Made by a program: the position numbers and the translations under genes
Notes under the pieces: generated by a model
Databases searched by the model: none
What the model was told of the DNA's origin: nothing
Seen by the model: only the letters and a program-made list of their open reading frames with translations
Assembly: GCA_945865885.1 (NCBI GenBank)
Contig: CAMBEZ010000006.1
Location: 1-64,000 of the forward strand
Direction: 5' to 3'
DNA length: 64,000 bases
Origin: Owenweeksia hongkongensis DSM 17368
GTDB lineage: Bacteria > Bacteroidota > Bacteroidia > Flavobacteriales > Schleiferiaceae
In this document: one piece after another, positions 1 through 4,039 of the stretch
How the letters are laid out: every line of letters begins with the position of its first letter
How positions within the stretch are numbered: position 1 is the first letter of the stretch

Positions 1-1115
1 GCATAATTGTATTCACGTAATCCAGCAATTGAAACCGCCCACTTATCGATTAGTCCAGAAGTAGAAACCTCATTCAGCTCCTTGTAGAAAGTATCGGGGG
101 TACTTGCCGTAAAACCTTTTCCGATCAAATCGTAATTGGGCGAAGCCACGGCATCAGTGGGCCAGACGGCATCGTGATAGTCTCCGCTGTAGGCAATAGC
201 AGGATCTTTAGAACTGGAGCAAGCCGGTTGTAAATTAATAATAGCGACACCCTGCATTCCATGACGAATGCTATCATGAACTTCATAGGTTACTGAATAC
301 GCGTAAGTTAACCCATTCTGATCTACTACACCGTCAATTCTGGGGTGTGTAATAACGTTTGACGGTAGATTGTTGCCCGATGTGAAGCCACTTAGGACTG
401 TGTTATAATCAAATAAATCAATACAGTCATTGCCCGTAATTGAATCAATTCCCTGAGCTACGAACAGGTATTTTTGATCGTCGTACACCTGTACATCCGG
501 CCGGAAGCGGTCAATAATTTTTCCGCCTTGGGTAAGTCCAATGTTTAGAACCGGCAAGGACGTCCCAAAGCCACCCGTTAGGGTTCCTTCGGCATATTTC
601 AAATCGCTGCTGCCAACCGAAGTTTCAAAAACGATCACTTCGGGATCGCGACTGATGGAATCGGTTGGGTTATCGATGTTTGGATGATGGGCATTGGCGT
701 GCACCAATTTTGGAGTGCTCAAAGTCAAAACGCCCGGGGAGTACGTAAACGTTCGGAATTCAATGCCTGTTCCTTTTTCGTTAACCACTACGCCGGAAGT
801 TCCATCCAGGCCAAAGACAATGTCCGGATCCCACGAACCAGAGGGCAAGGGCTGGATGAAAACGCCCATCCCGGGCTCATAAACGGCGATGCCCGGACTG
901 TCTCCATCCCAAGTATACGCGTGCGCAACCCCCTGGGCACAGCCGCTGCATTCACTGATGGCGGCTCCTGTATTTTCTACATTTGCATAAGGCCCGCCTG
1001 GCAGGATAAAGTCGTTGGTTTTAGCGGGATAAATTTGTCCTGATACGGGTAGAACGGCCCCAAACAGGACAATAAGTACCGTCAGCCTTTTTAGGAAATG
1101 CGTATTGTTTTTCAT
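1..1115 (-). CDS. Secreted protein of unknown function (3' end beyond window)
   Basis: The frame is open from the ATG to the window edge, giving 371 visible residues. Residues 1-27 look like a Sec signal peptide (basic start, hydrophobic core LTVLIVLFGAVLP, then SGQ), so the product should be exported. After it comes a Cys pair at about C56/C59 (ECSGC) and a region rich in Gly, Asp and Thr with beta-type patterning. I do not recognise a catalytic motif. The C-terminus, where a type IX sorting domain would lie, is outside the window. The gene lies in the AT-rich block at the start of the window and has one of three near-identical 20-bp inverted repeats upstream (1233-1252), so it may be co-regulated with the kinase operon. 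The coding call is firm because there are no stops and a clear signal peptide. The function is unknown. Confidence 0.75.
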   Translation of the reverse strand, partial: MKNNTHFLKRLTVLIVLFGAVLPVSGQIYPAKTNDFILPGGPYANVENTGAAISECSGCAQGVAHAYTWDGDSPGIAVYEPGMGVFIQPLPSGSWDPDIVFGLDGTSGVVVNEKGTGIEFRTFTYSPGVLTLSTPKLVHANAHHPNIDNPTDSISRDPEVIVFETSVGSSDLKYAEGTLTGGFGTSLPVLNIGLTQGGKIIDRFRPDVQVYDDQKYLFVAQGIDSITGNDCIDLFDYNTVLSGFTSGNNLPSNVITHPRIDGVVDQNGLTYAYSVTYEVHDSIRHGMQGVAIINLQPACSSSKDPAIAYSGDYHDAVWPTDAVASPNYDLIGKGFTASTPDTFYKELNEVSTSGLIDKWAVSIAGLREYNY

Positions 1116-1232
1116 TTGTTTCTGATTCAGAATTGATTTTTTATTGGAACGAGTGTACCAAAACAGGAGTGAATTCGGTCCAAAAATTCACCCTATTTGA
1201 TGATACAATGTTATCGGTTATTCCGAAAAGAA

Positions 1233-1252
1233 ACGTGATAGAAAAATATCAT
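1233..1252. promoter_or_regulatory. Inverted-repeat operator-like site, copy 1
   Basis: Reads ACGTGATAGAAAAATATCAT, with arms TGATA/TATCA. It lies between the Cys-rich gene and the secreted-protein gene, about 118 bases upstream of the latter's ATG. It matches copies at 1699-1718 and 4020-4039. A possible -7-like element for the secreted gene (minus strand, 1181-1188, AATTTTTG) would put the site near -65. Binding by the adjacent LuxR-type regulator is inference. Confidence 0.55.
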
Positions 1253-1346: not shown

Positions 1347-1649
1347 TCATTTTTTCCGGCACGACTTCTCCGCGTTGGCCGAGACCGGGTTCCGACGAAC
1401 CGATGCTTTTACATCAAAGCAATCCGTAAAATGGGATGCGTTGTGCGCGCTGCAGAGCGGCACAATGAGCCAAGGGCTGTGTTCGTCGTCGCAGGCTTTA
1501 ACGCGGCCACCCACAACCGCCTTGGTGGTGCATTGAATGACGGAACATTGGGGCGTGCTGTGGCTGCCGTTGTTTTTCATCCAGTGGTCCAACCAGCTGG
1601 TGCAGTTGCAGGTCAATCCTGTTGTATTCGGAGTGTTTTTAAATTGCAT
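1347..1649 (-). CDS. Small Cys-rich treble-clef/HNH-like protein
   Basis: Encodes 100 residues with C14, C16, C35, C40, C53, C66, H69 and C77. The core WLIVPLCSAHN resembles the IVPLC.xHN motif of small proteins found in Bacteroidota and elsewhere, in which paired Cys and a His-Asn couple suggest a zinc-binding treble-clef fold related to HNH modules. I know this type of protein by pattern only; no function is established to my knowledge, and a complete nuclease active site is not evident. There is no signal peptide, so it is probably cytoplasmic. A 20-bp inverted repeat shared with the neighbouring operon lies upstream at 1699-1718, and a -7-like element (TAAAATTG) at 1672-1679. A weaker plus-strand open frame covers the same bases but lacks this conserved pattern. 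Confidence 0.7.
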   Translation of the reverse strand: MQFKNTPNTTGLTCNCTSWLDHWMKNNGSHSTPQCSVIQCTTKAVVGGRVKACDDEHSPWLIVPLCSAHNASHFTDCFDVKASVRRNPVSANAEKSCRKK

Positions 1650-1698
1650 GGGAATTTCTAATAATGCCCTGCAATTTTATCAAGTATTATGGAGAAAT

Positions 1699-1718
1699 AC
1701 GTGATAGAAATCTATCGT
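1699..1718. promoter_or_regulatory. Inverted-repeat operator-like site, copy 2
   Basis: Reads ACGTGATAGAAATCTATCGT, with arms GATAG/CTATC around AAAT. It lies between the response-regulator stop and the Cys-rich gene, centred about 60 bases upstream of that gene's ATG. It shares at least 16 of 20 positions with the other two copies. Confidence 0.6.
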
Positions 1719-1730
1719 TTATGAGCGATT

Positions 1731-2345
1731 TTAGTTTTCCCAAAAACGAAACCGCCTCATTAATTCCTCTTGGCTATCGCATTCGTTGATGTCGCGGGCT
1801 TTTGCGATGTGGTTGTCAACCGTGGTGGCGGATATTTTTAAGATTTCAGCGGCTGACTTTCGGTTGTGTCCTTGCTTGATGACGTTCAATACCTTGATTT
1901 GGCCTTTGGTCAACTTCAAAGGGGCCGTTTCTTTGTACGTACTTGTGGAAAGCTTGGTTTGAATGACTAAGGGGCAGAAGTAGGATTCTCCGTGCAGCAG
2001 TGCTTGAATGCCCCGTTTCAAGGCCTCAATTCCAGAGGTCTTTGAAACGTAGCACGGCACTTCGTAGCGCTCAAAAAGTTCGATGAGCATTTTATTGACG
2101 TGTGAACTGAAAATGAGCACCGGCTTGGCGTTGGTGCGCGCCGTTTCCATAAGGCTCGGGTTGCAACCCTCCGTCAATTCCAGGTCGCTTATCACACAAT
2201 CCACGGGAAGACGTTGTGAAAAATGTTCCAGGGCTTCTGGGATTGTGGCATACTCAAATATTTCGGCATTGGGCAGTACGTCCAACACGTACTGCTTGAC
2301 AACAAACCGAATGGCTTCGTGGTCGTCAAGAATCAGAATTTTCAT
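1731..2345 (-). CDS. LuxR-family two-component response regulator
   Basis: Contains an N-terminal receiver domain beginning MKILILDDH, with the acidic pair near the start and the phospho-acceptor Asp in CVISDLEL (about residue 54 from this start), a Ser-Ser switch in LIFSSH and the Lys in YVSKTSG. A C-terminal GerE/LuxR helix-turn-helix follows (LTKGQIKVL ... ISATTVDNHI). It should be phosphorylated by the kinase encoded immediately upstream and bind DNA through the HTH. An ATG nine bases further upstream is also possible; either start overlaps the kinase stop, so the two are translationally coupled. The shared inverted repeats upstream of its own operon, the Cys-rich gene and the secreted gene are the obvious candidate targets, but that is inference. 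Confidence 0.93.
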   Translation of the reverse strand: MKILILDDHEAIRFVVKQYVLDVLPNAEIFEYATIPEALEHFSQRLPVDCVISDLELTEGCNPSLMETARTNAKPVLIFSSHVNKMLIELFERYEVPCYVSKTSGIEALKRGIQALLHGESYFCPLVIQTKLSTSTYKETAPLKLTKGQIKVLNVIKQGHNRKSAAEILKISATTVDNHIAKARDINECDSQEELMRRFRFWEN

Positions 2346-3093
2346 AGGGTACACTAATCGTATGCGTTACAACTTGATCTTGAACGGTGATCTTTTGTTT
2401 TGCACCGATGATGCGCAAACGGTCTCCAATGATCAACGTGCCAAAACCACTTTTAGCATTCCTTTTCCCCGTGATCCATTTCACAGCTTCGGGAGTGGCC
2501 CGGTAAACCACCATAATATTCAATACATCCTCTTCGTCGACGGTTGATATTTGAATTCGCGATACGTGAGCGTGCTTAATGGCGTTGGTGAGTATTTCTT
2601 GAACAGCCCAATAGGCGTGGTGGAGAAATTTTTCTGAAGGATACCGTACGGCATGGGACTCAAAAAAAACCCGTACGTTGCCCATGGACATTTGGAGCGC
2701 CATGGACTTAAAGCTCGTTTTCCAATTCGGTGTCGCAAGACCCTTGGGGTACATGAATTCTACGATTTGATGTGTTTTGTCTTTGAACAATTGATAGTCC
2801 ACCTCCAATTGGTTCAATGCAATGAGTTGTTCGGCGTTCAATTCAGTCTTGAGCCGCTCAAAATTGTGGGACATCCTCACCCAGTGTGCGCCCAATTGAT
2901 CGTGAAGTTCACTGGCGATTCGTTTCCGTTCCGTGTCAACGCCTTTAAAGCTTAGGTTATAAAGCCGGTGCACCACCGCGGAATACCTACGCAGTACGAT
3001 TCTACTGAAGGTGAAGGTGCCTATCAGTATGATCGCAGCCGTTGAGGTAATTGCGAATAAACTAATGATTAAAGAATCTCCTGAGTTGGACAT
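2326..3093 (-). CDS. Sensor histidine kinase, HisKA_3 type (NarL/LuxR partner)
   Basis: Has one N-terminal transmembrane helix (hydrophobic run ISLFAITSTAAIILIGTF), then a HisKA_3 dimerisation box with the phospho-acceptor His in ERKRIASELHDQLGA, and a HATPase domain with N-box (EILTNAIKHAH) and a glycine-rich G-box (SGFGTLIIGDRL). No periplasmic sensing domain is present, so the signal may come from the membrane protein encoded upstream. The start chosen is the ATG 32 bases inside the preceding gene's end; another ATG lies 30 bases further upstream. It overlaps the response regulator at its 3' end. The catalytic elements are all visible, so the class is certain; the stimulus is unknown. Confidence 0.92.
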   Translation of the reverse strand: MSNSGDSLIISLFAITSTAAIILIGTFTFSRIVLRRYSAVVHRLYNLSFKGVDTERKRIASELHDQLGAHWVRMSHNFERLKTELNAEQLIALNQLEVDYQLFKDKTHQIVEFMYPKGLATPNWKTSFKSMALQMSMGNVRVFFESHAVRYPSEKFLHHAYWAVQEILTNAIKHAHVSRIQISTVDEEDVLNIMVVYRATPEAVKWITGKRNAKSGFGTLIIGDRLRIIGAKQKITVQDQVVTHTISVPYENSDS

Positions 3094-3655
3094 GTAGTGC
3101 AACAATAGTTGTGGTGAATACAATTAAATTCCCGGCACCCATGTAAAGAATGAGTTGAGCTGCTTGCCAATCAAAGTTAAATTTCCGTAGAATTAAGATG
3201 GACATGGAGAACATCAAGTCTATGGCTAAAATAATATAGATCACGGATTTTTGAATATTATGACTGCTCAATTTAGCCAATTTATTGGCTTTATTTATAA
3301 GAAGATAAATCGCTGTAATGTATAAAATCAAGTAGATTAAATAATGATATAAAATCAAATTAATCAAAGACAGCAATAGTGTCAAAGGCGCCAAATAGAT
3401 TAATTTCAGCTTCTTGGCAAAACTTACGGCTACGACTATTCCGAGTGGAGAAAAAGCATGGTAAAATCGAAAAAGGGGATCACTTTGATTTAAAAAAATG
3501 TGCCCCAAGTTGTTCAGTAATAATATAAAAATGTAATAAATTACTTCGACGTGATTTACGATTGATTTACGCCTTATAAAGAGATTGAATAATACTCTAC
3601 AAAAAAGTATGGTTATTGCAATGAATTCCAGGATTGGATACCATTTTTGAATCAT
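3062..3655 (-). CDS. Polytopic membrane protein of unknown function
   Basis: About 197 residues with roughly six hydrophobic segments (for example AITILFCRVLFNLF, VIYYIFILLLNNLG, LTLLLSLINLILYHYL and IVFTTTIVALHV), very rich in Leu, Ile and Tyr. No family motif is recognised. The chosen ATG overlaps the previous stop as TGATG, a classical coupling arrangement; an in-frame upstream ATG would overlap more deeply and is less likely. The gene is visibly more AT-rich than the rest of the window, which suggests recent acquisition. Its position between a small CPTTC protein and a kinase lacking an input domain suggests a membrane-embedded sensor or transducer, but this rests on context alone. Confidence 0.8.
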   Translation of the reverse strand: MIQKWYPILEFIAITILFCRVLFNLFIRRKSIVNHVEVIYYIFILLLNNLGHIFLNQSDPLFRFYHAFSPLGIVVAVSFAKKLKLIYLAPLTLLLSLINLILYHYLIYLILYITAIYLLINKANKLAKLSSHNIQKSVIYIILAIDLMFSMSILILRKFNFDWQAAQLILYMGAGNLIVFTTTIVALHVQLRRFFNH

Positions 3656-3963
3656 CAAATCATCAATTCCGAATTTGTAAAACAGGTAGTGGGGCAATTC
3701 AGTGCACGATTGAGGAGCACTCCATCCGTCATGTCCGCGCCATTGGCGTCAACACCCACCACAACAATGGTCAGTTTGTCGTCATCGTTCAAGGCGAAAT
3801 ACGTGCGAATGTTCACACAGTCGGATTGATCCATGATCAGTTGGTACGCTTCTTTATCGATCATACTGGCAACCGTTAACCCTTGGAATTGTGTTGCATT
3901 CTGGAACGCATGGGTCATGGTTTGCGCTTGATCTAAGGTAATTACGTGGCTGTTGGTTGACAT
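3655..3963 (-). CDS. Small conserved-type protein with C-terminal CPTTC motif
   Basis: A 102-residue protein beginning MSTNSHVITL, chosen because it is the first ATG downstream of a good -7 element at 4002-4009; the upstream alternative is a TTG. The middle half predicts a beta-alpha-beta unit (LTIVVVGVDANGADM) followed by NCPTTC. In my recollection short Bacteroidota proteins with a V.VGVD.NG.DM core ending in CP..C occur next to small membrane proteins, but no function is assigned. There is no signal peptide. It is the first gene of a four-gene operon with a membrane protein, kinase and regulator. The two close Cys could bind metal, form a disulfide or be modified; the sequence does not decide this. 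Confidence 0.75.
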   Translation of the reverse strand: MSTNSHVITLDQAQTMTHAFQNATQFQGLTVASMIDKEAYQLIMDQSDCVNIRTYFALNDDDKLTIVVVGVDANGADMTDGVLLNRALNCPTTCFTNSELMI

Positions 3964-4001: not shown

Positions 4002-4009
4002 CAAATGTA
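4002..4009 (-). promoter_or_regulatory. -7 element of the signalling operon
   Basis: TACATTTG on the minus strand matches TAnnTTTG. It would start transcription near 3998, about 35 bases before the ATG of the first operon gene, and the inverted repeat at 4020-4039 would cover the -33 region. Confidence 0.6.
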
Positions 4010-4019
4010 TTTAGCGGAG

Positions 4020-4039
4020 ATGATAGAAATCTATCACGT
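4020..4039. promoter_or_regulatory. Inverted-repeat operator-like site, copy 3
   Basis: Minus strand reads ACGTGATAGATTTCTATCAT, with perfect TGATAG/CTATCA arms. It is centred about 32 bases upstream of the inferred start of the four-gene operon, so a bound regulator would either contact or block RNA polymerase. Matching sites lie at 1233-1252 and 1699-1718. Confidence 0.65.

Follow-up and report, generated by a model that had tools for sequence, protein, structure and literature searches.

In the Agr system, four adjacent genes encode a small precursor, a polytopic membrane protein, a kinase, and a regulator; there, the membrane protein is an enzyme that carries out the processing, and the polytopic sensor is built into the kinase. 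The sugar sensor UhpC resembles transporters and is of the MFS type, with about 12 transmembrane (TM) segments. In the UhpABC system, as presented in the excerpted account of PMC10352792, the separate polytopic sensor UhpC stimulates the kinase UhpB, and the set includes the regulator UhpA. QseG-QseE-QseF has an accessory lipoprotein whose gene lies with those of the pair and which activates the kinase, according to the excerpted account of PMC12691602.

The window, by which we mean the whole 64,000-nucleotide stretch of DNA analyzed here, covers the opening 64 kb of a contig 75 kb long, from a genome of 1.8 Mb in 51 contigs. It contains four genes, designated S, M, K, and R, as follows.

3655..3963, minus strand: S, a 102-amino-acid CPxxC-family protein with an ATG start and no signal peptide (open reading frames, family profile, AF2 model)
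3062..3655, minus strand: M, a 197-amino-acid polytopic protein and divergent member of a predicted seven-helix family, with its ATG at 3655-3653 (open reading frames, family profile)
2326..3093, minus strand: K, a 255-amino-acid histidine kinase with one TM segment, no input domain, and a missing G1 box (Pfam, NCBIfam, alignment)
1731..2345, minus strand: R, a 204-amino-acid response regulator with a LuxR/NarL DNA-binding domain (Pfam, NCBIfam, sequence)

The S/M junction reads TGATG, with base 3655 common to the S stop codon TGA and the M start codon ATG, and M and K overlap by 32 bases (3062-3093); a sequence-only reading of this DNA had described both overlaps, and both are found. The S sequence includes VVVGVDANGADM and NCPTTC. 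Profile searches give no Pfam or NCBIfam family match for either S or M, in agreement with the earlier statement that the two have no recognized function. The order S-M-K-R, with genes close or overlapping, is found again in distant relatives, above chance.

Like UhpABC, the locus combines a kinase that lacks a sensor of its own with a LuxR-type regulator and a polytopic membrane protein encoded next to it, and K has UhpB as its best NCBIfam match. However, M has no match to UhpC/MFS or any other transporter family, and Uhp has no S protein. Because M lacks a family match to a UhpC-type protein, we do not place the module in the UhpABC family; its mode of action may resemble that of UhpABC, with one more partner and another type of receptor. 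The likeness to QseG lies in the lipoprotein-like forms of S seen in relatives, but QseG binds its kinase directly, the excerpted account of PMC12691602 contains no separate seven-helix protein, and no relation of QseG to S emerges. Agr shares the layout of four adjacent genes of comparable kinds, whereas the kinase here has one TM segment and no polytopic sensor domain, and S is a folded domain of about 100 amino acids. The titles and abstract openings of the open-licence literature searched hold no description of the module.

We favor, with a probability of roughly 0.6, the reading that the four genes encode one signaling module in which M, as a receptor, acts in trans on K, with S as its input partner and R as an activator. 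M would be a seven-helix receptor or transducer with its N terminus outside and its C terminus inside, and its control of K would run across the membrane, given that K itself has a single TM helix and lacks an input domain. As the input partner of M, S would bind or report the signal and so gate M; K would then hand the signal on to R. R would bind a 16-bp palindrome centered about 42 bases before the transcription start, activating secreted-protein genes plus its own operon. We infer the contacts of S with M and of M with K, as well as the direction of signaling, from the evidence set out below.

K matches HisKA_3 weakly (21.6 bits, under the 24-bit Pfam cut-off), and its nearest NCBIfam model, UhpB, is matched with an E value of 3.7e-8, far below the cut-off. 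It has one hydrophobic segment and no input domain, just as the sequence-only reading had it. The H box and N box are present, with H64/D65 and E166/N170 aligning with columns that are 99-100% conserved in an alignment of 157 rows, the window being counted twice. The G1 box (DxGxG) is absent: window K reads VVYRATPEAV at a place where 95.5% of rows have the G1 glycine. This glycine is also lost in the window relatives L018, L019, and L020, and the motif is gone too in L088 and L021/L087. Many kinases of the family have HDGxG instead of DxGxG, and window K has neither. The missing G1 motif makes a plain ATP-driven phosphorelay doubtful in the window subfamily. R is recognized at the Pfam cut-offs (Response_reg, 30.2 with a cut-off of 30.2; GerE, 25.8 with a cut-off of 23.5), and the DD, D, and K residues of the receiver are visible in its sequence.

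A relative of S occurs in 9 of 88 genomes of the same family, and in all nine cases a membrane protein and a kinase come next, followed by a regulator in the larger stretches. A profile search found S in 82/395 genomes of the class, a broader profile found it in 48/395 genomes of a phylum sample, and a scan of named genomes added loci in Bacteroidota, Ignavibacteria, KSB1, Marinimicrobia, and Zixibacteria. Counting identical S sequences once reduced 221 hits to 209 distinct ones, and excluding 24 loci with less than 2.4 kb of contig downstream left 185. Among these, M lies within three genes at 168, K within four at 155, and R within six at 150, and all three are present at 142. For distinct short S proteins (up to 140 amino acids) with enough contig downstream (n = 143), the figures are 140 for M, 128 for K, and 125 for R; the complete set follows at 120 and is missing at 23. 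In the class sample only, 99 S genes with enough contig give 84, 79, and 74, with all three at 72; the loci without M are mostly long S variants, and 13/36 long variants lack M. Over all 221 survey loci (2615 open reading frames), 202 of 213 M matches fall within three genes after S. M and K genes overlap in 119/164 pairs (median, -22 nt), figures that are approximate since gene starts were set by script. The survey contained no S-M or M-K fusion, and at some loci, such as L170, L222, and L262, S and M stand without a recognized K. Several single cases were also seen: one open reading frame (L268) matches both the S and K profiles, two S domains occur in one chain in L139 (5914-6648) and L254 (4381-5133), and two M-like genes stand in a row in L198, L201, and L170.

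A separate search for M alone, over an equally large sample of the class, gave hits in 119/395 genomes. For a reverse test, 20 M loci, mostly strong, were chosen by hand from genomes without a match in the class S search. K comes next at all 20 and R is present at 19. Upstream of M, 11 loci have an S-profile match, 8 have no match, and 1 meets the contig end; 6 of the 8 upstream proteins without a match look lipoprotein-like by eye, and in a search of nine sequences 4/9 upstream proteins match the S profile weakly (9e-5 to 4e-4). These counts point to M-K-R as the firm core and to the upstream S gene as the variable input part. Lipoprotein-like genes with weak or no S-profile similarity also lie upstream of M-K-R in L337 (1318-1953 and 2201-2749) and L334 (2158-2796), and these may belong with S to a larger Bacteroidota lipoprotein family. 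The sequence-only reading had proposed a four-component module whose first two families accompany kinase/regulator pairs, and had named their occurrence mostly apart from kinases as the observation that would speak against it. The co-occurrence is borne out, both for S (K at 155/185 loci) and for M (20/20), and the four genes are a real conserved gene set, recurring in many Bacteroidota and relatives.

Window M shows six hydrophobic segments in a simple hydropathy count and matches the family profile with E values of 2.2e-9 in a whole-genome search and 9.7e-6 in a second search. A structural model was made for the M protein of the relative L111, from an alignment with 69 other family members, window M included; it has seven long helices with pLDDT 95.1 and pTM 0.90, and window M is only 14% identical to it. 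The best PDB matches of this model are GPCRs and microbial rhodopsins, with a Foldseek E value of 0.09 at best and high match probability, and fold comparison gives Z scores of 12.2 to 14.0 over 193-213 residues among the best 50 rows. As Z scores of 12-14 are common among helical bundles, we claim a similar arrangement and not descent. Lys plus Arg residues per protein in the M family number 2.83 in loop 1, 2.59 in loop 3, and 2.41 at the C terminus, against 0.37-0.96 at the N terminus and loops 2, 4, and 6; this positive-inside pattern indicates an N-out/C-in topology, in which loop 5, which would be inside, is intermediate at 1.66.

The M family is thus predicted to form a bundle of seven helices, N-out/C-in, with a likeness to GPCRs and rhodopsins, a prediction that is confident for the L111 relative. 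The likeness is one of predicted architecture, and M differs in that it would couple to a histidine kinase. Comparison with GPCR families in Pfam and with PDB sequences found no sequence relation, and for the 70 family members Pfam gives stray single hits only, as does NCBIfam. Two known classes were considered and rejected. A microbial rhodopsin would have the retinal lysine in helix 7, which is absent (at most 8/70 at any position). CREST seven-TM hydrolases (PAQR/ceramidase) are defined by SxxxH and HxxxH motifs, as the excerpted text of PMC3146951 states, and here HxxxH is found in 3/70 and both motifs in 2/70. Sensing is most likely the role of M; the earlier view of M as the natural sensor holds to the extent that it fits the seven-helix prediction and the kinase without an input domain. 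It is a tentative idea that M represents a GPCR-like seven-helix receptor family, widespread in Bacteroidota and relatives, that signals in trans to a sensorless kinase and has S as the dedicated protein ligand by which it is gated, S being tethered or free depending on the species.

In its AF2 model (pLDDT 87, pTM 0.73), S forms a small domain of the alpha/beta kind. Sequence search gives no credible PDB match, and no fold match is found in the PDB, the best Foldseek E value being 0.19, from which a new fold does not follow; the best fold comparison, with copG, has a Z score of 3.2 over 51 residues. Near-invariant residues, in window numbering, are R53, Y55, G70, C90-P91-x-x-C94, and L100, and the C-terminal tail CPPxCxxxNxLNS is conserved. 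CPxxC is carried by 139/163 leaderless S proteins (up to 140 amino acids) and by 30/33 anchored or lipoprotein-like ones. We rejected the idea that CPxxC is in general an indispensable redox or metal switch, because the motif is missing or incomplete in 24/163 leaderless proteins. In L261, L264, L265, and L266, relatives from the same order, the second Cys is replaced (CPPAS, CPPYG, CPPQG), with the S-x-L part that comes next kept.

Window S is leaderless, with no export signal. A hydrophobic or lipoprotein-like N terminus is seen in 33 of the 217 distinct proteins with an S domain and is lacking in 184, as classed by a simple rule and not by a signal-peptide program; L094 may have a wrong start. 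The anchored or lipoprotein-like forms place the same domain outside the membrane in those relatives, on the outer face of M. Over 108 quartets, S distances correlate with those of M (0.30) and K (0.27) more strongly than in any of 200 permutations; after correction the link to R disappears, the partial correlations being 0.21 for M, 0.16 for K, and -0.08 for R. The effects are small. S may be the ligand-binding or modified partner that the sequence-only reading had supposed.

The region upstream of the operon and of two neighboring genes contains the following elements.

4021..4036, no strand: operator palindrome TGATAGAAATCTATCA before the operon (palindrome searches)
4002..4009, minus strand: -7 box TACATTTG, at a distance of 11 nt from the operator at 4021..4036 (consensus as given in the excerpted PMC9723704)
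1702..1717, no strand: operator palindrome with one mismatch, before the gene for a 100-amino-acid Cys-rich protein (palindrome searches)
1672..1679, minus strand: -7-like box TAAAATTG, 22 nt from the operator at 1702..1717
1347..1649, minus strand: 100-amino-acid Cys/His-rich protein, a probable R target (operator upstream)
1236..1251, no strand: operator palindrome with one mismatch, before a secreted-protein gene (palindrome searches)
1206..1213, minus strand: -7-like box TAACATTG, 22 nt from the operator at 1236..1251
1..1115, minus strand: secreted protein with a signal peptide recognized by eye, cut by the contig end, a probable R target

The palindrome TGATAGAnnnCTATCA precedes the operon, and the genome has one more perfect copy, at contig C38. 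Twelve genomes chosen from the family contain perfect copies at seven places (G000, 2; G007, 1; G068, 2; G086, 2), six of them at the module locus; these four genomes all carry a close form of the module, and the eight others have no perfect copy. Class II activators sit near -42. Of 13 site/gene rows, 7 have a box of the TAnnTTTG type (at least 5 of 6 positions) at a distance of exactly 22 nt beyond the palindrome, 2 have one at 11 nt, and 4 have one at neither offset; the chance of a box is 0.0086 per offset, and the 13 rows are not independent. The principal promoter box of flavobacteria is TAnnTTTG, located at -12 to -5, according to the excerpted text of PMC9723704, and with the 22-nt gap this places the center of the palindrome near -42. 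From this position and from the co-occurrence with the module, we infer that R binds the palindrome. The operator and promoter sites tie the operon to secreted-protein genes, a point added to the first reading, as is the loss of the G1 box from the kinase. For S genes in general, a best palindrome score of at least 8 is found upstream in 29% of 157 cases versus 8% for base-shuffled DNA, which is suggestive only, since AT-rich DNA makes hairpins.

The same observations can be arranged differently. Because the operon itself bears the operator, R probably induces S and M, and the two could be outputs with an envelope or redox task of their own, co-regulated by the kinase/regulator pair downstream. 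The loci where S and M lack a recognized K would suit this, yet K follows M at every reverse-test locus, the two genes overlap in 119/164 pairs, and K, found at 155/185 S loci, has no other input domain; we regard this explanation as unlikely. S could also act from the cytosol, as an inhibitor or docking protein for K or for the cytoplasmic face of M, in the manner of small anti-kinases. The absence of a signal peptide from window S and from 184/217 S proteins is consistent with such a role, as is the finding that S distances track K as well as M. However, an anchor or lipobox-like start in 33/217 homologues places the same domain outside, and a cytosolic regulator seems rather doubtful.

The gene order ligand-receptor-kinase-regulator, the operon's own operator, and the conserved C-terminal tail of S also recall an Agr-type loop, in which leaderless S would leave the cell as a pheromone-like protein signal and be sensed outside by M through recognition of CPPxCxxxNxLNS. 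Relatives do have exported or anchored S, but the anchored forms would stay permanently bound, leaderless S has no export route, the module includes no processing enzyme, and CPxxC is missing or incomplete in 24/163 proteins, all of which makes this loop improbable. Under the preferred reading, in which M acts on K with S as input partner, M and S are a candidate receptor and partner, in many genomes, for kinases of which many have no sensor of their own. The M and S families are absent from the domain databases searched, and with the readable DNA target a simple reporter could address the question of the input. Should M be a true receptor, it would stand for a bacterial seven-helix receptor class acting via a separate kinase.

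In G007, a putative target carries a T9SS sorting tail (PF18962; E value of 1.6e-6, above the cut-off); a type IX tail in the G086 target (5.4e-4) is below the cut-off, and at C38 glycosyl hydrolase 16 is matched weakly, again below its cut-off. Homologues of the 100-amino-acid Cys/His-rich protein come right after the module in L019 (7713-8024) and L020 (8467-8760). This protein has no credible Pfam match, and its Cys/His pattern looks zinc-binding. Large secreted proteins adjoin the module in relatives (L020, 8881-15001; L019, 1-5431), and one long open reading frame in L020 resembles, by eye, proteins of the SpvB/RHS type. Among 144 neighbor genes scanned (145 drawn at random from 228, the window row excluded), no Pfam family dominates as a common output and T9SS tails number at most 8, so we restrict the claim of a secreted-protein output to the window subfamily. 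Module neighbors also include phage tail collar domain proteins (4/144) and four phage integrases.
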